Source: Undibacterium paludis (GTDB taxonomy: Bacteria; Pseudomonadota; Gammaproteobacteria; Burkholderiales; Burkholderiaceae_D). From it: a stretch of DNA of 64,000 nt. Within the stretch, counting starts at the first letter, position 1. Every line of letters begins with the position of its first letter. Shown here piece after piece: positions 31,668 to 58,695 of this stretch. Under the pieces are notes generated by a model. It worked only from the letters and a program-made list of their open reading frames with translations, searched no databases and was not told the origin of the DNA. A program made the position numbers and the translations under genes. Location of the stretch: assembly GCF_022568815.1 (NCBI RefSeq), contig NZ_JAKZHX010000004.1, forward strand, positions 186,001 to 250,000, given 5' to 3'.

Positions 31668-34600
31668 CTACTCCGGTTTGGTGACACCAGACTTGAACTG
31701 CCCCATCACGTCACGCTTGCCACGTTCCAGATAGGGTACAGGCTTGTCCATCCATTCCGGCCTTGGGCTGCCAAGCAGGTAATGATCGAAGAATTCGGCC
31801 ATATGCACGGTGTAATGCTTCATGTTGTCGCGCTCTTTCAAGCCGTGCTTTTCACCATTGTAATTGAACCAGTAAGCTTCTTTACCCAGCTGACGCAAGG
31901 CAGTGAAGAATTCTATGGCCTGGTACCAGGGCACTGCATCGTCATCATCATTGTGTATGGTCAGATAAGGTGTCTGCACTTTGTCGATATGGAAAATCGG
32001 GGAATTTTCTATGTATTCCGCCGTCTTGTTCCAGGGCGCCCCGCCGATACGGCTTTGCTGTTTTTCATATTGAAAGGCGCGGCTCATGCCGGTACCCCAG
32101 CGTATGCCGCCATAGCCACTGGTCATGTTGGCCATGGACGCACCGGCCTCAACCGCACGGAACATATTGGTTTGCGTGATCAGGTAATTGATCTGGTAAG
32201 CACCCCAGCTATGGCCTTGTATGCCCACGCGTTTTGGATCAACATAACCCTGCGCCAGCACTTTCTGCACTGCCGGTATCACGGCATTGTAGGCGCTCTT
32301 GCCCGGGTGGCCGGTCTTGTAGACGATGTCCGGACGCAGCACAATATAGCCGTTGCTCAGGTAGCGGGTCACATTGATGTTCTGGCCCGGCGCAGGAGGC
32401 ACATATTTATGCAGATTCTCCGACATGTTTTCATAGATGTAGACCATCATCGGATATTTCTTGGCCGGGTCAAAATTCTCTGGCTTGGCCAACAGGGCCT
32501 TGAGTTTTTTTCCGTCCAGTGTGGTGTACTCAATCAACTCCTGCCTGCCCCAGTTATAGCTGGCTTGCTGTGGATTGGCTGCGCTGATTTTTTGCGGATT
32601 TTGCAAAGTCAGGTTACTGGCCCACAGGTCCGGGAATTCAACAAAACTCTGCTCGGTGAACAACACTGTGTCAGCTTTTTTTGCCTTGATCAAACCAGAA
32701 ATCAATTTGTCGGCATGAATCAGCTTGACTGGTTCACCAGCCTTGGGGTTTTGCTGATAATAACCGGTTGAGCGATTGCCTTCATGCGTTGCCGCCAGTA
32801 TCCATGAATCAGTTGGCAAGGCTTTGGCCTCTGCTATTGGCGAAGGCTCTTCACCCGGCATTTTTTTCTCATGATCGAGTGGTACATAGCGCAACTCAAG
32901 CTGGTGCTTGCGTCCATAACCTGCTGTCAGGTTACGGCTGACCTGTGTTTTGGGGTTCACTTCCCACAGGTCGAACTGATCGTATAGAACAACACTGGCA
33001 TCATCTTCCGTCCAGCCGGCAAAACCATAAGCATCCTTGACTTCTGGCGTGTCACGTTTAGCGTCTTCAAACCTGGCTTTGATCTTTCCCGTCAGGTTGA
33101 TCTTGCTGCCATCAGCGGTGGCCCAGGCAAACCAGGTACTGGTATAGGCATCAAAGGCCAGCACATATTTGCCGCCTGGTGACAGGCTAGGTACATAGCG
33201 CAGCTTTTGCGCCAGCAGACGTGCCTGCCCGGTCTGCAAGTCGACAGCATATGCATCATGGTACAGGGCATCCCATGATTGCTGCATCCTGTATGGCAGG
33301 TCACTGACACCCATGGCAAAACCGGAGTTGTCGTTAATCAGTACATTGGGGACGCCCTTGCTGGCAAGCTGGACCAGGCGCTGCTCTGCGATATGGAATA
33401 CGGCCTTATAACTGCGCTGTTTTTCTTTCTCCGCCTTCACCTTTTGCATGGATTGCAGTTCAGGGTCTTTCCAATGCCAGAGGTCAACCTTGAATGGTTC
33501 TGGTGCATCCTTGGGTTCTGGTCTGGCCAGTTCTGCCGTACCAAAGAACAGGCGTTGCCCGTCTTTGCTGAAGCTCAGGCTGGCATGCTCGCTGGGCAGC
33601 CAGCCCGATGGCAAACCGGCTGTACCGGCAGTGACAATGGCTCTCGCTTCTGCATCACCGGCACGCCAGTAATACAGGTTAAAAGCAGTGATTTCTTTTT
33701 CCTTATCGGCTTCGCTCTGTTTTTTACCAGACTTGTCAGCTTCGGCCCGTTTTTTTGCCAGGTCATCACGATTGCTGACAAAGGCCAGTTGACGACCGGC
33801 TTCATCAAAATTCAGATGCCGGTAACTGCCAGCGCCACTCATGACAGCGCGTGCCGTTGTATCCTGCGGGCTGATGATGGCGACACCACCGCTGTCCTTG
33901 CTGTCCTTGCTGTCCTTGCTGTCCTTGCTGTCCTTGCTGTCCTTGCTGTCCTTGCTGTCCTTGCTGTCCTTGCTGTCCTTGCTTTCCTTGCCTGTTTCCT
34001 TGCCAGTTATGCTGAAAGCCAGCAACTCACCGTTCTTGGCCCAGGCAAAATCCGTGACATCCTTATAGCTGTGGCGCTTGCCGTTGGCAACATCGATGAA
34101 CAGGAATTCTGAACCAGTTTCTTTTTTCTTGGCAGCGCTGGCAGAACTGGTCGTAACCTGCTGATCCTCATCCAGGCCTTCATCCTGATCATCATCCTTG
34201 GCAGCAGCCTCGCTGTCTTTTTTAGCATCCTTTTTCACTTCTTTTGGCGCTTCCAGCAACACTGCCAGGAAATTACCGCCCTCTTCCGGCCAGGCAAAAC
34301 GTTTTACCCTGTCCTGGCTTTCCACTTTACCATTGCTCAGGTCCATGAAGCCCATGCCAGGCTTGGGCAAATCATCGCCCTTCTTCTTTTCTTTCTTGGC
34401 CTTGTCCAGTTCTGCACGCGTAGGAGCAATAGCAAAAGCCAGGTAGCGGCCGTCAGCACTGAACACAGGACCGGTACCGCGCGGCGACCGCCATTCGCGG
34501 CCGTCCTTGAGGTTTTTCACCACGACTTCGCCATCTGACTCTTGCCCGACCAGTGCATACGCTGCCCAGTTGCCATCACGACTCAGCACACTGCCCTGAA

Positions 34601-48609: not shown

Positions 48610-49473
48610 TCAACGTACCTCGCAAATCAGGCTGCCCGCCTTATTGTCGCTATTGGTATTGTCCTGACTGACATTGACCGGGAAACCCCTTGGCGGATTA
48701 AACTGCATGCCAGGATTGTTCGGCAGAATGATGGGGGGCCGGTTAAAGCTGATAGCAAAACCAAACTGTCCCGTGGTGACATCAAGCAGGCCGGCATTGT
48801 TTTTCATGAAGATGGTGCCATCAAGAACCTGTACATACAAACCTGGCGCACGCCCCTGCCCTGCCCCCGGGGTTTCATCCGCAGCCAATTGCAGAGCCTG
48901 TATCGGTGCGATCGATGTACCGGCATCAGTATGGATGCTGCTATTGGCGACGGGGACTTTATCCAGCGCCGCCACCGTCGCCAGGTTGTAGGCTGCCAGA
49001 CTGTTTTCCGGTGGCACGTATTCCGCGATGAAGGTGGTACCACGTATGCCTATCGACGCCGTAGGTGTATTCAAGCCAAAACGTTCTTTATTGCGCTTGC
49101 CCAGCAAACCGGTGACAGCACGCAAGCCCCCCTTGATCAGGGTCATGGTGAAACCGTCGTTATTGGGTTTGTCTTCTTCAAATGAAAACTGGTCTATCTT
49201 GATCTGGCTATTGGGTCTCAAGACAATTTCACTATTGTCGGCAAACTTGATGCGGGCATACGTATCTTTTTCTGCAATCAGGGTATCCCCCTGCTCTACA
49301 TTCGATTGCAGCGCCAATACCTTGACCGCACCGTCGGCTTTTTTGGCGATCAACGGTCCGCTCAGATGCGTCACTGTTCCCGCAACCTGTGCAGCAGCGG
49401 CGAGCGCGCAGCTCAGGCACAGGGCAACAAGAAAGACGAACTTAATTGCAATAGAGTTTTTTATCACTGACAT
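48610..49473 (-). CDS. FecR domain protein of TPS locus
   Basis: 287 aa. Signal peptide (KFVFLVALCLSCALAAAAQ), then a FecR-type beta domain: GTVTHLSGPLI, TYARIKFADNSEIVLRPNSQIKIDQFSF and the hallmark FGLNTPTASIGIRGTTFIAEY. No membrane anchor or sigma-binding tail is present, so it is unlike the iron regulator FecR and is better viewed as a secreted or periplasmic FecR-domain protein. Its first 32 bp overlap the end of tpsA in another frame, which couples the two. The C-terminus is Pro/Asn rich (PPIILPNNPGMQFNPPRGFP) and ends with an LICEVR. Confidence 0.88.
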   Translation of the reverse strand: MSVIKNSIAIKFVFLVALCLSCALAAAAQVAGTVTHLSGPLIAKKADGAVKVLALQSNVEQGDTLIAEKDTYARIKFADNSEIVLRPNSQIKIDQFSFEEDKPNNDGFTMTLIKGGLRAVTGLLGKRNKERFGLNTPTASIGIRGTTFIAEYVPPENSLAAYNLATVAALDKVPVANSSIHTDAGTSIAPIQALQLAADETPGAGQGRAPGLYVQVLDGTIFMKNNAGLLDVTTGQFGFAISFNRPPIILPNNPGMQFNPPRGFPVNVSQDNTNSDNKAGSLICEVR

Positions 49474-52400
49474 TTTTTAATACTCCGTTGTCCCTGCTGC
49501 CGGCAAAACTGCTTTTTTGCTCAAACCTGGTTTCCCTGCCCGAATCACTGGCTCCGCTCTCGAAGAAATGATCGGGATTGCTGAGTGAATTCGTCATCGA
49601 CAGCGTGGAGCTGATGAAGTTGTTCAGGGCAAAATTGATCGTATTGTTCAAGACATTGCCAGTCCTCAGATCGCCTATAGGCAATACCAGGGTACAACCC
49701 AACAGGCCAGGATTGGCTGCACACTGTGCCTGCGTAGGCAGGATGGCAGCGCATCCGTTCAGGGCCGGATTGGCCGCGCAACTGGCCAGCGTAGGTAAGA
49801 CTACACTGCAACCAGGGGTGGCAGGGCTGGCGACACAAGTAGCGATGCTGGGTAGTATGGCGCTACAGCCAGCTGCAAATGGTGAAGCAATACAGGTGGC
49901 CAAAGTAGGCAATACAGCCGAGCATCCGGGCAAAGCAGGATTGGCCACACAGGCGGTCAAGCCTGGCAGGACTGCACTGCAACCTGCCGCGGACGGTGTC
50001 GCCGTACATGTTGCCAAAGTCGGCAAGACTACATTACATCCGGCCTGTGCCGGGTTGGCAGTGCAACTGGCCAGACTTGGCAATACTGCGCTGCATCCGG
50101 GTGTAGTCGGCGCTGCAGTACAGGTGGCCAGACCAGGCAAGACAACACTGCAACCTGGCAATCCGGGATTGGCAATACAACTGCTCAGGCCTGGCAACAC
50201 GACATTGCAACCTGGCAGGTTGGGTGTCGCTGTACAGGCTGTCAGTGTCGGCAAGACTGCACTGCAACCAGCCAGTGTCGGTGTTGCTATGCAAGTCGCT
50301 ATACCAGGCAACACTGCAGTACAGCCTGGCAGGCCAGGGTTGGCAACACAGGCGGCAAGTGTAGGCAGGATGGAACTGCAACCTGGCAAATTAGGATTGG
50401 CCGTACAGTTTGCCAGTGTTGGCAGTACCGCACTACACCCCGGCAGACTGGAGTTGGCCTGGCAAGCAGCCAGGGTAGGCAGCACACTGCTGCAACCAGC
50501 CAGGTTAGGACTGGCAGTACAGGCTGCCAAAGTCGGCAGAACCACACTACAGCCTGACAGATTAGGGTTAGCCTGACATGCAGCCAGGGTTGGCAGTACA
50601 CTGCTGCAACCGACCAGGGCAGGATTGGCTATACAGGCAGTTAATGTGGGCAGGACCGCGCTGCAACCGGACAAAGCTGGGTTGGCCTGGCAAGCGGCTA
50701 GGCTTGGCAAGACACTGCTGCAACCAGCCAGTGAAGGGTTACTGATACAGGCACTCAATGTCGGCAAAACAGCACTGCAACCTGCCAGGCTTGGCGTTGC
50801 AGTACATGCGGCCAGCGTCGGCAGGACAGCACTACAGCCAGCCAGACTGCTATTGCTGATACAGGCAGACAGTGTGGGCAGGACAGCGCTGCAACCTGGC
50901 AATGTCGGGGTGGCCGTGCAAGTGGCAATACTTGGCAACACTGCCGAGCAACCGGCAATGTTTGGTGAAACCAGGCACGCTGCCAATGCCGGCAGGACCA
51001 CGCTGCAGCCTGCCGTAGAAGGGCTGGCGGTACATTGTGTCAGGCTAGGCAGTACCACGCTGCAACCGACCTGGCTGGAATTGCTGATGCAGGAATTCAG
51101 GCTGGGCAATACCGAGCTGCATCCAGGTATGGCAGGATTGACCAGGCATGAAGACAAACTGGGCAGGACAGCACTGCAACCGGCCAGATTGGGGTTAGCC
51201 TGGCAGGCAGATGCGCTGGGCAAGACATAGCTACAATTAAAAAGACCAGGATTGGCTAAACAGGCACTCAGACTGGGCAACACTACACTGCAACCAGACA
51301 ACGTAGGTGAAGCCTGGCAAGCAGCGATGCTGGGCAGGACGACGCTGCAACCTGCCAGTTCCGGATTGGACATGCATGACGCCAGGCTTGGCAATACAGA
51401 ACTGCAGCCCGCCAGGGACGGATTGGCAATACATTGCGACAGCGTTGGCAAACTGACAGAAGCATTCAGGAACTCTTGCTTGGTTACAGGGCCAGTCCCT
51501 ACCGAGCTGGGGTTGGCAATGACAATTGAGTCCCCTGCCTTGAGCAGTATATTACCCGTGGTATTTACCACACCGGTAGAGCTTATCGTCAGCTTGTCAG
51601 CAGTACTGCCAGTTGCGCCAGCTTCCAGTGTGATATTGCCGCCGTTTGCGCTGGCAACCGTACCATTCACCGTCAACGGGCTATGTGCGACCAGACTGAT
51701 GTTGCCAGCCTTGCTGCGCACTGAATCAGTACTGTCGAGGGTAATGGCGCCGGTATTATCGATCAGTATGTTACCCGTACTGCCGGCACTGCTTTGCTGC
51801 ACATTGCGGATATTCAACGCACCGGTGTTCTTGATATTGATATCTGTATTTGAACCTGTATTATTGGCCAGCAACACAGGCACAGCGGTTTTAAGACCAG
51901 TTCCGTTGCCTATGCCGCCGCTGGCTGTTGCATCAAGCGCCCCACCGCTCAGCACGCTGCCGCCGGACTGGCTGATGGCCCCATTGGGTGCTGACAGGGT
52001 AGTGGTAGCCGTGCCGGAATTGACATTGGCCCCCAGAGCGATATTGCCGCTATTGGCAGTCAGGTACAAGTTACCTGCAGTAGCAATACCAGAGAGGCTA
52101 TAGGTACTGGAACCATTACCTCCGCTCAAAGTCGTGACATTGATACCCTGACCATTTACCAGACTCAGACCAGCATTAGTTTTGGCAGCCAGATTGCTGA
52201 TCATGTTCGTACCATTGAGGGTAACGCTGCTACCGGCAACGATACCCAGATCCTGCACCGTGATAGGGTTGACCTGCGTAATATCACTACCTGTCAACAA
52301 ACCTATGCGTGTTGTTGTCAGATGCTTGATATCAGTAATTGCACTGGTATTGGTATCCGTGATGCCAACTACAGATATGGGGCCGGATGCATTGCCCGCA

Positions 52401-55400
52401 TCTCCGCTGCCTATCGCAATATTGGCTGCACTGACCTTGTACAGATTGGTCACACTGAGGCAAGGTGAAGAAGTACAGGTACCTGAGCCTATCGTAATAG
52501 CCCGCCCAGAGGTAAATGGGCGTATGCCAACATCTCCCGCAGTGACACCGCCCGGTCCGCCCAGCGAAAGCTGGTCGGCAATGAAGCCCACCTTGCCGGT
52601 ACCTGCATTGACATTGTCAGAGACCGTCAGCGTGCCAGTACCAGAACTGACCGTCACCGACTGGTTATTGGTCGTAATACCAGTGATAGCAGCGAGATTT
52701 GAGATATTGAGATTGCCCGAACTATAAATATTCAGACTGCCGGTACCGAGACCGGAAGGATTGAGGTCAGCGGCCAGCGAACTGAAACTGTTGCCCGTAT
52801 TAGCCAGATTGACCGCCCCCTTGGTCTGCAAGGCCAGACCACCTGTCGTGATTGGGTTGCTTGCGGCCTGACTGATACCGGATACGGAATCAGATATGAG
52901 CTTGACACTTGATGGCGCATTGATGCCGCTGTATCCATCAACCGTAGAAATATTAATAGGATTGCTTGAACGATAAAAGAAACTGCCTGTGCTGGCGGAG
53001 CCGGAGATGACACCAATGAAGTTTGCTTCAGTCAGGCTGACACTGTAACCTCGCGCCTGCACGGCACTGGCACCATCTATGGTGGCCCCTGCTTGCTGCG
53101 TGATGGTATTGCCAGAATTCAGGGTCAGTGAAGTATTGATATTCTGCAGAGCCCCACCAGAACCGGAACCCATGGCACCTTTGATATCTATGGCGCCGCC
53201 AGCCATTGAACCTATCTTCAAGCGCGTCGCCGTAATGCGGTTCAATTCAGCAGCAGATAATTCCAGTGTGCTGGCTGTCAGATTGGTCGCCACTGTCGCC
53301 AAGTGTATGCTGCTCCCCCCTGCATTCGGCTGCAATATCACAGAACCTGAGCCCGCATTGACATTACCAAGCAAATCCATCTTGTCAGACTGTAGGGAAA
53401 CATTTGCGCCAGAACTGTTGATCTGTGCACCAGACGCTGTACTGGTCAGGGCATCAGCATCAGAGGCGGACAGGCTGACCGTACCGCCCGTGCTGACAAT
53501 ATTACCGCCTGCAAACTGATTGATGCCGCCTGCACCATTCACTGAAATCAGCCCGTTATTGGTAATAACGGGTGCATTGAGTTCAACGGCAAAAGTTGTC
53601 GGTGAACTCAAGTATATCGCCTGGCCTGCGGTCTGTTGTTTAATGCCGTAACCGGTAGCACCGACGTCACCAACGACAAGATTGGCGCCGCTACTGGTAA
53701 TGCGAATATCGCCACTACCGGTATTCAAGGCATTCACTTTTGCCGCCTTGACTACCATATTGTCGGTGGGATTGGTACCATGCAGACCAGTGGCGGCAAT
53801 CAGCTTCAGGTCGTTGGCATAAATAATTGTTCCGTTGAGCTGGGTTACGTCAGTACCCGCAGTGATCGTGACATTCGCATTCGCCGCAGAGTTGCCGCGT
53901 GCATCGACACCACCAGAACCGAGACTGACAAAACCACTACTATTAATAGTAATGTTGCCGCCAGCCCCAGTCGTCCCTGGTGTCGTCAACAGAGTTTTGG
54001 TTGTAGTATTACCGCTGGAGTTCAAACTGATCGTCCCGCCATTTGTGGTCAGCTTCGCAACCGAAATATCGGCGGCCTGCGGCGACACGGCTGACCCGGC
54101 CTGCAGGCTGATGCTGCCGGTACCGGCAGTCTTGAATTCAAGATTGGGGTCAGCTCCCGTCAGATTGATGCCCCGTGTGGCACTGATATCAGTAGAAGCA
54201 TTGCGGGTTCGCAGCGTGAGGTTTGAATTGGCAGGAAGATTGATCACACTGCCAAAGAAGGTGCCACTGGTGTCAATATAATTGCTTGCTTCCAGGATGA
54301 TGTTAGTACCTGGCGTCAGTCCCTGAAGCTCAGACTGGTATACGGTCGTTGGACTGCCATCAGCAAAATTGATCGTGCCTATCGCTGATCCCTGGAAGGT
54401 ACTGGTACCATCTGAAGCACCATCACCAGTGCCGCCAGCGATGGTGATTGATGCAGGGTCAAGTAATAGAGTACCGTTCTTGCCGCGCGGAGAACTGACA
54501 TTTACTTTGGCATGAAAATCCAGAGTCTGCTTACCGGAGGTTTCGACAAAGCCGCCATTGCCCCCCTGTACACCGCCGCGTGCAGAAATACTGCCATTTA
54601 CCCGTGTCAACTCATCCGACCAGACGATGACCTTGCCACCATCTCCTGCGGACAAGGCGTCAGCACTGATTTTCGCATCAATCGCCACAAAGGCACGTTT
54701 GGCATTCATCACACCAGGGTTGTCGCCGTGATAGTCGCCGCCTAGCAGTACCTGACCACCGCCCGTATTGCCGCTGGCATCCACCTCGGCATTACCGGCC
54801 AGTGCTACACGCTGCCCGAGTATCTGGATGTCACCGCCCTTGCCTGCCGAAGTCGCCGAGGTGCGGCTGCCGCTGTCAAGTATTGTATCCTGGCTGGCCT
54901 TGAAGTAAATTTTTCCATTTGCGCCAACAACAGCGCTATCAGCACTGACCAGACCACGCTGGCTGATCAGTGCGCCATAAATACCGATTCTGCCTCCTTG
55001 CGATATCACCTGCCCCAGGTTGACAATCTGGTTATTGTCGGCACTGACAACCACATGCACATCGGGATTGGCAGAGTCAACCAGTTTGACCGAGCGCCCG
55101 GCCGCCAGCAATACCTCACCATTTGGCGAAGTGATGATGCCGTTGTTTTCTACATCAGGTGCAATCAGATAAACATGGCCACCGGCATTCGTCGTGATGG
55201 CGCCCTGGTTTGTCACCTTGCCAGCTTGTGCACCCGCTTCAAAATTCAGCTTGCCGGCCTTGAAGTCGGCATCGCTCATGCCCAGGCTGGATACAGTCAG
55301 GCCATTGACATCAACCTGCGCTCCTTTTCCAAACAGCACCCCATTGGGATTGATCAGAAACACCCGGCCATTCGATTGCAGGGCGCCCAGTATCTGGGAC

Positions 55401-55741
55401 GGATTCTGTCCAGTGACACGATTAAGCACCGCACTGTTTGCATTCTCTTGTATGAAGCGCGTTATCTCACCGCTGTCGATGGAAAAATCCTGCCAGTTGA
55501 TGATGGCGCCCGGTGTATTGGTGATCGTGAACAGGTTGCCATTCTTGTTGAATATCACCTTGCCATTAACGACCTGCGGGCCAACCGGATTGGCCATCGC
55601 CCCAGACAACACAAAACAGCTGGCCAGCAGCACAGGTAACAACCTGGGCGTCATGGGGATTAGGCGTGATAACAAGCCAGGTTTCAGGTTCGGGCACAAT
55701 GCAGATTCAGTGTGGGCGAACAGATTGATTTCTTTCCTCAT
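49442..55741 (-). CDS. TpsA filamentous haemagglutinin-like exoprotein with Cys repeats
   Basis: 2099 aa, the exoprotein of a two-partner secretion system. Extended signal peptide (1-50, cleavage after AMA) followed by the TPS/haemagglutinin activity domain (~55-180) with NPNGVLFG at 131-138. A beta-helical passenger of Thr/Ser/Asn/Gly repeats runs to ~1400 and has almost no Cys. Residues 1431-2019 are 31 tandem 19-residue repeats with consensus LPTLxxCxANPxLxGCSxV. An 80-residue tail ends in LYCN. The start is ATG 55741, preceded by AGGAAG; the ATG at 55753 has a weaker context. Co-transcribed with tpsB and fecR. Function of the repeats is unknown. Confidence 0.93.
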   Translation of the reverse strand: MRKEINLFAHTESALCPNLKPGLLSRLIPMTPRLLPVLLASCFVLSGAMANPVGPQVVNGKVIFNKNGNLFTITNTPGAIINWQDFSIDSGEITRFIQENANSAVLNRVTGQNPSQILGALQSNGRVFLINPNGVLFGKGAQVDVNGLTVSSLGMSDADFKAGKLNFEAGAQAGKVTNQGAITTNAGGHVYLIAPDVENNGIITSPNGEVLLAAGRSVKLVDSANPDVHVVVSADNNQIVNLGQVISQGGRIGIYGALISQRGLVSADSAVVGANGKIYFKASQDTILDSGSRTSATSAGKGGDIQILGQRVALAGNAEVDASGNTGGGQVLLGGDYHGDNPGVMNAKRAFVAIDAKISADALSAGDGGKVIVWSDELTRVNGSISARGGVQGGNGGFVETSGKQTLDFHAKVNVSSPRGKNGTLLLDPASITIAGGTGDGASDGTSTFQGSAIGTINFADGSPTTVYQSELQGLTPGTNIILEASNYIDTSGTFFGSVINLPANSNLTLRTRNASTDISATRGINLTGADPNLEFKTAGTGSISLQAGSAVSPQAADISVAKLTTNGGTISLNSSGNTTTKTLLTTPGTTGAGGNITINSSGFVSLGSGGVDARGNSAANANVTITAGTDVTQLNGTIIYANDLKLIAATGLHGTNPTDNMVVKAAKVNALNTGSGDIRITSSGANLVVGDVGATGYGIKQQTAGQAIYLSSPTTFAVELNAPVITNNGLISVNGAGGINQFAGGNIVSTGGTVSLSASDADALTSTASGAQINSSGANVSLQSDKMDLLGNVNAGSGSVILQPNAGGSSIHLATVATNLTASTLELSAAELNRITATRLKIGSMAGGAIDIKGAMGSGSGGALQNINTSLTLNSGNTITQQAGATIDGASAVQARGYSVSLTEANFIGVISGSASTGSFFYRSSNPINISTVDGYSGINAPSSVKLISDSVSGISQAASNPITTGGLALQTKGAVNLANTGNSFSSLAADLNPSGLGTGSLNIYSSGNLNISNLAAITGITTNNQSVTVSSGTGTLTVSDNVNAGTGKVGFIADQLSLGGPGGVTAGDVGIRPFTSGRAITIGSGTCTSSPCLSVTNLYKVSAANIAIGSGDAGNASGPISVVGITDTNTSAITDIKHLTTTRIGLLTGSDITQVNPITVQDLGIVAGSSVTLNGTNMISNLAAKTNAGLSLVNGQGINVTTLSGGNGSSTYSLSGIATAGNLYLTANSGNIALGANVNSGTATTTLSAPNGAISQSGGSVLSGGALDATASGGIGNGTGLKTAVPVLLANNTGSNTDINIKNTGALNIRNVQQSSAGSTGNILIDNTGAITLDSTDSVRSKAGNISLVAHSPLTVNGTVASANGGNITLEAGATGSTADKLTISSTGVVNTTGNILLKAGDSIVIANPSSVGTGPVTKQEFLNASVSLPTLSQCIANPSLAGCSSVLPSLASCMSNPELAGCSVVLPSIAACQASPTLSGCSVVLPSLSACLANPGLFNCSYVLPSASACQANPNLAGCSAVLPSLSSCLVNPAIPGCSSVLPSLNSCISNSSQVGCSVVLPSLTQCTASPSTAGCSVVLPALAACLVSPNIAGCSAVLPSIATCTATPTLPGCSAVLPTLSACISNSSLAGCSAVLPTLAACTATPSLAGCSAVLPTLSACISNPSLAGCSSVLPSLAACQANPALSGCSAVLPTLTACIANPALVGCSSVLPTLAACQANPNLSGCSVVLPTLAACTASPNLAGCSSVLPTLAACQANSSLPGCSAVLPTLANCTANPNLPGCSSILPTLAACVANPGLPGCTAVLPGIATCIATPTLAGCSAVLPTLTACTATPNLPGCNVVLPGLSSCIANPGLPGCSVVLPGLATCTAAPTTPGCSAVLPSLASCTANPAQAGCNVVLPTLATCTATPSAAGCSAVLPGLTACVANPALPGCSAVLPTLATCIASPFAAGCSAILPSIATCVASPATPGCSVVLPTLASCAANPALNGCAAILPTQAQCAANPGLLGCTLVLPIGDLRTGNVLNNTINFALNNFISSTLSMTNSLSNPDHFFESGASDSGRETRFEQKSSFAGSRDNGVLKNVSDKKLYCN
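49685..51451. repeat. 31 x 57-bp repeats encoding Cys-ladder
   Basis: Coding repeats of 57 bp (19 codons) without interruption, each with two Cys: Cys at repeat positions 7 and 16, so gaps alternate between 8 and 9 residues. Divergent at DNA level (no identical neighbours over the whole unit), but units 11 and 13 and 14-18 are close, hinting at unequal recombination. Starts at LPTLSQCIANP and ends at LPTQAQCAANPGLLGCTLV. Confidence 0.97.
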
Positions 55742-55756
55742 GCTCTTCCTCATCGA

Positions 55757-57370
55757 TCAGTAGTTGACGCCAAGCCTGACATGCAGGCGCCTGTCGTCTT
55801 TACTCAATTCATCCGGTGAACGCAAGCCTTTGCCATAATCCATCTGCAAGGACATCATCCTCGACATCGCCAGGCGAAAGCCTATACCCACACTGGCAAT
55901 CGAAGCTGAAGCCTGCTCACCGGGCAAGGCTTTGTTACGTGAAACGTGAGCCATATCATAAAAACCCAGCAACTGGCACTGTGTAAAACTGGATGTGAAA
56001 CCTGCACACAGATTTGGTGTATAAATCTCACCGCTGAACAGGGTGCCATAATCATTTGCCAGTGCACGTTCGGTAAAGCCGCGTACACTGCTGGCACCAC
56101 CGGCGCCGAATTGCTCACCGGGCACCAGACTGTCACTGGTATATTGTCCGCTCAAGGTCAACTTCAGCTGCCAGGCGGCCGGCAATACCCTGCTATAGCC
56201 AGCACCATAACGGAGTATGCTGTACCCTGCTTTGGCGCCGCTGCGTACCTTCAGAAAATCTTCGGTCTTGCCTTTTTCTCCACCGGGGATATTGTGCACG
56301 GCAGTCAGGTAAAAACTGGTTTCGCCAGTGGTTGAGCTCACATTGCCGGAATAGGTCAGGCTGAGCGGATGCACAGTCACATCATTGCCCAGTTGTATGC
56401 CCTGCAGGGCCACATTATTCTTGAAAGCCTTGTAATCCAGACCCAGGCTAAGGCGGGAATCAAAATCTTCGCTGCGGCCAAGACTGTAGTTATAACGGGT
56501 ACCAAACACCGAGCCACGACCACTGACTGCCAGGTCAAAAATACCGGCGGCCACTGAGCCGGAATCGACATTCGAGTAGCTCGCATAGACATCGACAGAA
56601 TCACCGCGCGCATAGACAGGCAAATGATAGCCGACGCCAAGCACACTGTATTTGCTGGGCTTTTGCAGGGTAGTCGTATATTGCAGGCTCAGCACATCAT
56701 CGTTACCGCTGATGTTTGCATGCTGGAACAATAAACCGAGGTGCGATTTACCCGTATTGCTGTCGCCAGCATTGTCGAGGTTGGCGCCGACAGCCCAGGG
56801 TTTGTTATCCACCACATTCAGGACAGCATTGACCTCACCTTCCTTACTGGCGGTTTCAAACTGCAAATTGGTTTTCTTGGCCGGATTTTCATTGGCCAGC
56901 TTGAGGCTGTTCGACAGCACCTTGATGTTCGGCGTATCGCCTTCACGCAATTGCGGCAGGCTGCGGCGTACATTATCGCTGTCAAAATTCTTGTTGCCCT
57001 TGACGCTGATACTGCCTATACGCGCCTGCACAACGACGAATTTGACAACACCCTGATTAAGTTCCTGCTCTGGCAAGACCACTTGCACCAGGCCGTAGCC
57101 TTTCTGGTGATAAGCTTTTTCCAGCGTTTCCAGCGCTTTTTGCACATCGGCAAAGCTACGATTTTTCCCGGTATAGGGGGTCAGCAACTCATTGATCACA
57201 GTTGCCGGAAGTAAATCATTGCCTTTGACGTCATAGCGACTGACCTCAAATCTGCCGATCACACTGTCAGTATCTTGCGCTGACACCGGTTGACCGAACC
57301 CACATGTCAGTGCCAATAACAGACTGACAGTAAAACAAGGTCTGGAATACTTGCTCTTCAATGATCTCAT
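55757..57370 (-). CDS. TpsB outer membrane transporter (ShlB/FhaC family)
   Basis: 537 aa. Signal peptide, POTRA modules (ISVKGNKNFDSDNVRRSLPQL belongs to the second) and a 16-strand Omp85-type barrel. The L6-loop signature VRGF is in GASSVRGFTERALANDYG, and the barrel ends in an aromatic C-terminal Tyr (VRLGVNY), a classic outer membrane assembly signal. It translocates TpsA, encoded 15 bp downstream, through the outer membrane. ATG 57370 follows GGGAAA. First gene of tpsB-tpsA-fecR. No short linker helix before POTRA1 is evident beyond the early region. Confidence 0.95.
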   Translation of the reverse strand: MRSLKSKYSRPCFTVSLLLALTCGFGQPVSAQDTDSVIGRFEVSRYDVKGNDLLPATVINELLTPYTGKNRSFADVQKALETLEKAYHQKGYGLVQVVLPEQELNQGVVKFVVVQARIGSISVKGNKNFDSDNVRRSLPQLREGDTPNIKVLSNSLKLANENPAKKTNLQFETASKEGEVNAVLNVVDNKPWAVGANLDNAGDSNTGKSHLGLLFQHANISGNDDVLSLQYTTTLQKPSKYSVLGVGYHLPVYARGDSVDVYASYSNVDSGSVAAGIFDLAVSGRGSVFGTRYNYSLGRSEDFDSRLSLGLDYKAFKNNVALQGIQLGNDVTVHPLSLTYSGNVSSTTGETSFYLTAVHNIPGGEKGKTEDFLKVRSGAKAGYSILRYGAGYSRVLPAAWQLKLTLSGQYTSDSLVPGEQFGAGGASSVRGFTERALANDYGTLFSGEIYTPNLCAGFTSSFTQCQLLGFYDMAHVSRNKALPGEQASASIASVGIGFRLAMSRMMSLQMDYGKGLRSPDELSKDDRRLHVRLGVNY

Positions 57371-57667: not shown

Positions 57668-58273
57668 TTACCCGGCCCTGGCCTTGCGTGTTGAAGTTTC
57701 GCGTTTGCCTGGTCCTGTTTTTGTTTCCACGACATGGTCAAATTCATCAATGCGAAATATCCTTGTGATAGGGACGGATGCGCAACACAATGCATCCCGG
57801 GGACCGGCTTCCTTACCCTTGATACTGATAGTCCGCCCTTCTATACGTGCTGTCTCGAAATCAAATACGCGCCAGCCCCGCTCACCCAGCTTGCTGACGG
57901 CAATCAACTGATAAGGTTTGGCTGTCTTGCCTGCCAATTCCATCTGCTCACGCTGGGCATAAACCGCCATGTACTCAGCATGATGGTTGCCGCCACCAAA
58001 ACCCTCGAGATTAAAAAAAACCACGGCATCATGTTGATGATCGTCAAAAAGCTGCCCATACAGGATAACTGCAGGATTGCCATCAAATGGCGCAGCCAGA
58101 CCATCGCTGAACTGATCAGTCAGCCTGTTCAATTCTGCTTTCATGAAAGCCTGTTGCACAGGTGATGCCGATACAGCAGGGGAGGGTTTGGTGGTTTGGG
58201 CCATTACCAGGATTGGCAAGCCAAGACTGCAGGCCAGCAATAGCCTGTTTGTCATCTGTGTCAAACGCGTCAT
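57668..58273 (-). CDS. secreted protein of unknown function
   Basis: 201 aa. Signal peptide with LLLACSLGLPILVMAQ. Then Ala/Ser/Pro linker and a domain of alternating beta strands: GNPAVILYGQLFDDHQHDAVVFFNLEGFGGGN, YAQREQMELAG, LIAVSKLGERGWRVFDFETARIEG. No family recognised. It contains adjacent Cys-Cys (DALCCASVPI), possibly a vicinal disulfide. It starts at ATG 58273, three bases beyond the DUF6404 stop, so the two genes are one operon (DUF6404 first). Confidence 0.75.
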   Translation of the reverse strand: MTRLTQMTNRLLLACSLGLPILVMAQTTKPSPAVSASPVQQAFMKAELNRLTDQFSDGLAAPFDGNPAVILYGQLFDDHQHDAVVFFNLEGFGGGNHHAEYMAVYAQREQMELAGKTAKPYQLIAVSKLGERGWRVFDFETARIEGRTISIKGKEAGPRDALCCASVPITRIFRIDEFDHVVETKTGPGKRETSTRKARAG

Positions 58274-58275
58274 GC

Positions 58276-58695
58276 TCAAGCCTTCCCCGCGTCATCAGTC
58301 ATGAAGTCTTGCCATGACGGCAAACCATGCTTGCGCTTGCCATAGGCATAATAGCTGGCCAGCGCCAGTCCAAAAAAGAAACCGGCGCTCAACGCCGCCC
58401 CCAACATGGTGCCTGGCAACATATTCAGTTTATGCCAGATAAAGAAGTACATCAATATTCCCCACCCCAGTGCATAAAACAGACCGGAATACAGGGTGTT
58501 TTTCCAGAACGGGGCAAAATGTGGCGGCGATACATCCAGCCCCAGGCGCCAGCAAAGACGCAGATAAGGAGGTGCATAGTTGCTATGCATGATGCCGGTT
58601 TTTTCCAGCATGTCCAAGGCTGCCTGACGTCTGGCTTCGAGTCTGCCCCGGATTTCGCCAGAGGCCTGTGTATCTTTGTCACTGGTATTCATCAT
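58276..58695 (-). CDS. DUF6404 family membrane protein
   Basis: 139 aa. N-terminal charged helix (LEARRQAALDMLEKTGI), the family motif SNYAPPYLRLCWRLGLDVSPPHF, then two membrane helices (YSGLFYALGWGILMYFFIW and LGAALSAGFFFGLALASYYAY). The pattern matches small DUF6404 proteins, of unknown function, as far as I recall them. It precedes the secreted protein directly and is likely co-transcribed. Start ATG 58695; 58692 is in tandem. Confidence 0.8.
   Translation of the reverse strand: MMNTSDKDTQASGEIRGRLEARRQAALDMLEKTGIMHSNYAPPYLRLCWRLGLDVSPPHFAPFWKNTLYSGLFYALGWGILMYFFIWHKLNMLPGTMLGAALSAGFFFGLALASYYAYGKRKHGLPSWQDFMTDDAGKA

Follow-up and report, generated by a model that had tools for sequence, protein, structure and literature searches.

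This locus raises the question of how a ladder of cysteines, up to 104 of them in one relative (L090), passes through the outer-membrane transporter TpsB, and what then holds the exported protein on the cell. The window (the whole 64,000-nucleotide stretch of Undibacterium paludis DNA analysed here) encodes the exoprotein TpsA with its ladder, the transporter TpsB and a FecR-like protein. The first-pass annotation had described the ladder; the larger finding, an apparently matched pair of terminal cysteines in TpsA and the FecR-like protein, lies outside the positions it covered.

Architecture of the locus

TpsA carries an N-terminal TPS domain, and the gene of a POTRA and barrel transporter, as recognized by Pfam, adjoins tpsA, which is the arrangement of two-partner secretion (TPS). 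In Pfam and NCBIfam searches of TpsA, only the TPS domain or its adhes_NPXG part was matched. The features, in window coordinates, are as follows.

55757..57370, minus strand: tpsB, outer-membrane TPS transporter, 537 aa (Pfam ShlB 2.6e-30, POTRA_2 4.8e-17)
55976..56008, minus strand: Cys455 and Cys465 of TpsB, 26 and 36 residues past the Val of VRGF
49442..55753, minus strand: tpsA ORF, exoprotein, 2103 aa
54965..55594, minus strand: TPS secretion domain, TpsA residues 54-263 (PF05860, 1e-30)
51452..54964, minus strand: low-Cys region of TpsA, residues 264-1434, probably beta-helical (only Cys 1093 and 1098)
49685..51451, minus strand: cysteine ladder, 31 x 19 residues, TpsA 1435-2023 (consensus LP[TS]LxxCxANPxLxGCSxV)
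49445..49684, minus strand: C-terminal tail of TpsA behind the ladder, 80 residues
49445..49453, minus strand: Tyr-Cys-Asn end motif of TpsA, with Cys2102
49442..49473, minus strand: overlap of the tpsA 3' end (with stop) and the fecR 5' end, 32 bases
48610..49473, minus strand: fecR-like gene, 287 aa, FecR-domain product (PF04773 3.9e-10; export leader by reading)
48613..48624, minus strand: Cys-Glu-Val-Arg end of the FecR-like protein, with its sole Cys past the leader

The beta-helix of residues 264-1434 is probable by analogy with the TpsA family, and by Omp85 topology we take Cys455 and Cys465 of TpsB to lie in extracellular loop 7. Upstream of tpsB, a 203-aa ORF (57668-58279) matched no Pfam family; of the six congeneric ladder loci fetched, five have a homologue next to the operon.

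The ladder is built as first described: 31 tandem 19-residue repeats with zero indels, Cys at positions 7 and 16 in all 31, and Cys-to-Cys distances of 9 and 10 in turn throughout the 62 Cys, with no exception. The placement of Pro and Gly had been called strict, which is true of Pro2 (31/31) and not quite of Gly15 (30/31) and Pro11 (28/31); Leu1 is kept in all 31 repeats. The part ahead of the ladder is indeed Cys-poor, holding only Cys20 and Cys46 (in the N-terminal leader, by reading), 1093 and 1098. The fifth Cys outside the ladder, Cys2102, is the penultimate residue of TpsA and was absent from the first-pass annotation.

The array occurs once in its own genome. Its units share a mean DNA identity of 59%, with synonymous differences near saturation (pS 0.74, pN 0.29), and Cys is encoded by a mixture of 35 TGC and 27 TGT codons, all 62 Cys being kept. 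Given the near-saturated synonymous sites, the mixed codons and the absence of any Cys loss, it looks like an old array under protein-level selection rather than a recent duplication.

Distribution and length of the ladder

A 57-residue ladder profile (A1) was searched in genome samples, every tally including the window's own genome. Matches were found in 8 of 43 genomes from the genus (one match being weak), in 63 of 392 genomes and 12 of 44 genera of the family sample, and in 6 of 399 genomes of the order sample, three of these being weak and outside the family. Weak matches in genomes G026, G335, G340 and G397 (E 4e-5 to 4e-4) were attributed to chance. A comparison of the ladder sequence itself with genome contigs gave 73 pattern matches and zero confirmed ones, low complexity being perhaps the cause. 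Judged by the profile matches, the ladder is neither a chance feature nor unique to the window.

Ladder loci fetched with their flanks formed a 29-locus set. Whether the ladder always stands behind a TPS domain had been asked at the outset: 27 of the 29 ladder ORFs have such a domain, L086 gave no match, and in L111 none was seen in an ORF that the contig end cuts. Ladder length runs from 4 to 52 units, truncated ladders counted, and the six congeneric arrays fetched have 28 to 33 units each. Of the 29 loci, 24 have a TpsB homologue and 23 a FecR homologue. The contig edge falls inside tpsA in L083, L084, L085 and L098; L090 and L096 are second copies in their genomes, with neither TpsB nor FecR in the fetched flank.

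A profile search, proposed in the first-pass annotation as a way to overturn its reading, did not place the repeat in any characterized family of Pfam, NCBIfam or the PDB. The ladder region matched no family in Pfam or NCBIfam, the ladder sequence found nothing in the PDB, and the ladder profile gave five weak PDB matches only, including small Cys-rich proteins and CagY, which were treated as leads. The best of these was the mitochondrial ribosomal protein mrp10 (E 0.013); CagY reached E 4.9 with no stretch passing, so that homology to it was not found. The ladder would represent an unnamed repeat family, and its number of disulfides would scale with its length.

Predicted structure of the ladder and probable pairing of its cysteines

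AlphaFold modeling of eight window units, with 51 other alignment rows, returned an all-helical solenoid with two short helices per unit (residues 4-9 and 16-19) and no strands, at a pLDDT of 90.6 that may be flattered by an alignment itself built of repeats. The structure prediction suggested with the first description of the ladder is thereby supplied. A Foldseek search of the PDB with this model gave zero matches. The 19-residue repeats of FHA form a beta-helix; the ladder shares this period within a TpsA, whereas it is predicted to be all-helical, without beta-strand rungs. A beta-helix, first assumed for the ladder from the period, was given up in favor of the helical model.

The spacing of the cysteines suggests which of them pair. 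Among 24 ladder TpsAs of an 80-locus set (described below), the Cys7-Cys16 distance within a unit is 9 in 501 of 501 cases; between units, the distance is 10 in 437 of 477 cases, 11 to 13 in 36, and 7 or 8 in 4. In the 29-locus set, 631 of 632 intra-unit pairs are at 9, the exception being the last pair of L096, at 7; the L098 ladder has lost one Cys. Counted over 74 TpsAs, CX8C units are absent in 25, single in 25 and number at least four in 24. The one-unit TpsAs combine the CX8C pair with a terminal Cys and mostly one or two more Cys upstream. Because the intra-unit distance is fixed, the inter-unit distance varies and single-unit relatives exist, a disulfide between Cys7 and Cys16 inside each ladder unit is likely. 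The disulfide-stapled rod first put forward for the ladder fits the fixed CX8C spacing, the single-unit relatives and the confident helical repeat model, the bonds themselves being deduced from these.

In 49 relatives, the stretch behind the last CX8C Cys is 60 to 195 residues long, which should suffice to cross the membrane. Several relatives have Pro-rich linkers ahead of the ladder.

A constant terminal cysteine in TpsA

The tail behind the ladder was compared in an 80-locus set, the best 80 of 177 confirmed relatives found with a TpsB alignment; counts from it are inflated by relatedness, since the loci were picked by TpsB similarity and share species and genomes with the 29-locus set. TpsA ORFs were required to have at least 400 aa and a TPS match of E 1e-10 or better (85 ORFs); the tail counts are based on the 78 whose 3' end is complete and omit the other 7. 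With or without a ladder, 74 of these 78 end in [YF]CN, and all 74 have Lys at -5; in the 29-locus set, the YCN end is found in 25 of 25 complete ladder TpsAs. The four complete ORFs that end differently are L128, L168, L175 and L188; in the first three loci another ORF, in another frame, ends in YCN, that of L128 being among the 74.

In 19 of the 74 TpsAs, the terminal Cys is the only mature Cys, and from the NPxG motif on the number of Cys is odd in 70 and even in 4. These odd counts and lone terminal cysteines imply that in most TpsAs one Cys has no evident partner within the same chain. As CX8C units number zero, one or at least four while YCN stays, the ladder would be an optional insert and the YCN tail the constant part. 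The window TpsA does not show an HMW-type end: it has one Cys at -2, and the next one is a ladder Cys at -84.

The fecR start lies inside tpsA, and the YCN codons also encode the FecR leader. The position of the fecR start codon within the tpsA 3' end (49442-49473) suggests translational coupling.

The FecR-like protein, a proposed partner of TpsA

The FecR-like protein passes the PF04773 gathering score (40.5 bits against 24), and 46 of the 46 members of alignment A5 match this family at E 0.01 or better. FecR itself is an inner-membrane anti-sigma regulator; by reading, the FecR-like protein has an N-terminal leader and no separate cytoplasmic part. A lipoprotein was considered and is unlikely, because several of the leaders hold no Cys.

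A FecR ORF was found in 71 of the 80 loci; in the other nine (L119, L121, L131, L132, L148, L166, L171, L179 and L188), the record ends within or near tpsA or tpsB. The end C-x-VR is present in 67 of 73 FecR ORFs, and 66 of these 67 have exactly one Cys past the leader. L150 ends in CEVRT, and the tail Cys is absent from five ORFs (L129, L137, L162, L169 and L172). The tail-less FecR overlaps a YCN-ending TpsA in all of these except L162, where it stands at the record start; L129 and L137 have a second FecR with the Cys tail, and the flanks of L169 and L172 end before any could show. The profiles exclude the L086 FecR, whose sequence is broken by X; its last Cys is a frame accident and was not counted as a tail.

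The model of the FecR-like protein is poor overall (pLDDT 59), with a moderate beta domain in residues 1-70 (block means 74 to 86) and a disordered Cys-bearing tail (pLDDT below 50 in mature residues 231-260). A FecR profile search of the PDB gave one chance-level match (E 0.42). The LapA retention module holds its adhesin at the outer membrane; its family, NF033682, scored 30.6 against the FecR-like protein, below the cut-off of 50, a weak match to what is here a separate protein.

The TpsB cysteine pair and the spread of the system

TpsB has conserved cysteines as well. In the loop past the VRGx motif, all 77 readable TpsBs of the 80 relatives have two Cys separated by 5 to 11 residues, and 0 of the 11 controls in which VRGx was matched have them; the loop Cys are found in 24 of 24 TpsBs of ladder loci. 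Coming as a pair, the TpsB Cys of this main group would have a partner of their own.

Among the best 80 of 177, TpsB relatives occur in Undibacterium, Noviherbaspirillum, Massilia, Duganella, Pseudoduganella, Janthinobacterium, Rugamonas, Paucimonas, Herbaspirillum, Telluria, other Oxalobacteraceae, Variovorax, Polaromonas and Pseudomonas, and in some further records. Within the same 80, many records of Oxalobacteraceae have the pair of terminal motifs, as do some from Pseudomonas, Variovorax and Polaromonas.

Control loci

Controls comprised 17 of 19 listed non-ladder TpsA places (all but G016 and G038) and the second TPS place of the window's own genome. The TPS domain of the latter lies at G000:C34:108081-108656 (L193, L194), inside a 1080-aa frame. 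These places yielded 13 TpsAs with a readable end; L194, L199, L201 and L209 had none and L211 is cut. Ten of the 13 lack both a Cys among their last ten residues and a FecR in the region. In the other three, L195, L196 and L198, one of the last two residues is a Cys, flanked differently from the main group (KKC, KSCS, LCR); their genomes each have a FecR homologue beside tpsA or tpsB with a Cys four or five residues from the end (ECTIE, ECVVQ, GCVVGP). For L195 and L198 this homologue is in the region; for L196 no FecR is in the fetched flank, and the one of its genome (G040), ending in ECVVQ, is on another contig, 1.1 kb from TpsB.

In L195 and L198, the Cys count of TpsA is even, with a further Cys at -189 and -1664, respectively, so that the terminal Cys could find its partner in the same chain. 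Close Cys pairs are also present in the FecR homologues of L195, L198 and L278. That of L198 is a 480-aa ORF with two tandem FecR-profile matches and its Cys five residues from the end. L205, from the same genus as the window, has a TpsA with a CX4C pair 11 and 16 residues from the end, like the hooks of HxuA and HMW1, and no FecR in the fetched region.

FecR homologues were also drawn phylum-wide (23 of 398 genomes, fetched with flanks). The two that are TPS-linked, L237 and L238, both have the C-x-VR tail, L238 being split over two frames; the tail is present in 0 of 30 unlinked FecR ORFs at 26 loci, one of which (L240) ends in SCVNSACN. Fisher's test of the tail in 67 of 73 ORFs against 0 of 26 loci gives 2e-18, a guide only given the relatedness.

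Proposed mechanism and alternatives

The repeats, the gene set, the two terminal motifs and their co-occurrence were computed; every disulfide, the placement of the parts and the anchor function are what we infer from them. We hypothesize that Undibacterium and related betaproteobacteria have a two-partner secretion system of three genes, in which a ladder stalk of variable length is combined with a disulfide between the terminal Cys of TpsA and of the FecR-like protein that anchors TpsA; to this reading we give about an even chance. TpsB would export TpsA, whose outer part would consist of the N-terminal TPS domain and the beta-helix. The ladder would form a membrane-near stalk, a helical solenoid with one Cys7-Cys16 disulfide per unit, and stalk length would shift through gain or loss of units. 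The unfolded TpsA tail would thread TpsB and leave the last residues, YCN, in the periplasm, where the unpaired Cys of TpsA would bond the unpaired C-terminal Cys of the FecR-like protein. As the folded FecR domain would be too big for the pore, it would hold TpsA on the cell. A wider version, a three-partner type Vb system in which a FecR-domain protein in tail-to-tail disulfide linkage with the exoprotein is the periplasmic stopper, periplasmic redox state could set retention or release and the stapled helical stalk spans 4-52 units, seems to us a little short of an even prospect.

The terminal cysteines may bond otherwise: in TpsA-TpsA or FecR-FecR dimers, within TpsA, or with TpsB; or they may be a signal for a processing or attachment enzyme. 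Both motifs resemble a sorting signal in being short and placed at the extreme C-terminus, no FecR is in the fetched flank of L090, L096 or L196, and the TpsAs of L195 and L198 hold another unpaired Cys. However, the two terminal cysteines co-occur, including in three more distant genomes, 19 of the 74 TpsAs have no other mature Cys to pair with, and the main-group TpsB Cys already have each other, which leaves these possibilities together rather unlikely.

Alternatively, the ladder itself could be the anchor, oxidized and folded in the periplasm and jamming in TpsB like serial HMW1 hooks. C-terminal disulfide loops are described, in the text available to us, as holding HMW1 and HxuA in TpsB, and the ladder sits C-terminally in TpsA, in several relatives behind the Pro-rich linkers. 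Against this, the YCN tail is kept in the 25 of 74 relatives with zero CX8C units, 4 to 52 units are hard to fit into a fixed periplasmic space, and closely spaced Cys loops should not block translocation according to the consulted part of a review. We consider a ladder anchor distinctly improbable. The tether jamming in TpsB that the first-pass annotation had offered would thus survive in changed form: since the C-terminal motif persists without any CX8C unit, the separate terminal Cys is a better candidate for it than the ladder.

Free ladder thiols, for metal binding or redox sensing, are very unlikely. Sixty-two regularly spaced Cys could make a metal array, and a metal or redox site had been among the initial suggestions; it found no support, and His, Asp and Glu are not regularly placed in the unit. 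The periplasm, moreover, is oxidizing, and exported TpsA passes through it.

That YCN is a mere side effect of the overlapping fecR start is scarcely credible: the FecR frame crosses the tpsA stop in 60 of 78 complete TpsA ORFs and 60 of these 60 end in [YF]CN, but so do 14 of the 18 without overlap, with mixed synonymous codons, and three of the other 4 ORFs are at loci with a separate YCN frame. Because the motif is thus kept without overlap, YCN appears to be selected in TpsA itself.

Relation to known systems

The proposed TpsA-FecR anchor resembles known ones in part. In HMW-type TpsA proteins, a C-terminal disulfide holds the protein in TpsB (PMC5422565, PMC4873976), and CdrA of Pseudomonas aeruginosa has a cysteine hook (PMC11898600, PMC7616799), as far as the consulted text of these papers goes. 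By the same text, HMW1 and HxuA are held on the surface via C-terminal Cys thought to be periplasmic below TpsB, with two Cys of one chain forming a loop, whereas the window TpsA has one penultimate Cys and its apparent match in a second protein. CdrA is likewise a TPS adhesin; a Cys near its C-terminus is thought to anchor it in CdrB, but neither a FecR-like partner nor a ladder is mentioned for it in those portions. TpsA anchoring as there described thus relies on cysteine loops within one chain. If the proposal is true, the exoprotein would be clamped by a separate protein via matched terminal Cys, a principle of anchoring that would be new and would amount to the HMW1/CdrA cysteine hook built from two proteins. 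No FecR-type TPS partner and no such ladder came up in the literature searched by title and abstract start, subscription journals being mostly outside its reach.

For the ladder, the closest likeness is CagY of the Helicobacter pylori T4SS, whose repeats are helical and Cys-rich (PMC2581425, PMC10706595) in the excerpts at hand. It is described there as a long array of helical modules with two Cys each and modeled intra-module disulfides, and its repeats recombine; helical modules with two Cys each are found in the ladder too, by prediction only. CagY differs in belonging to another secretion system, in its A module of 38-39 residues, rich in Lys and Glu, and in its negligible match to the ladder. 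The statement that no characterized example was known accordingly holds for TPS proteins, as far as these sources reach, but not beyond them, the CagY repeat region being a described analogue of the ladder.

Apart from the ladder, the window holds a further tandem array at 33891-33991, in which a 9-base unit (GCTGTCCTT) is repeated in 11.2 copies with 98% matches.
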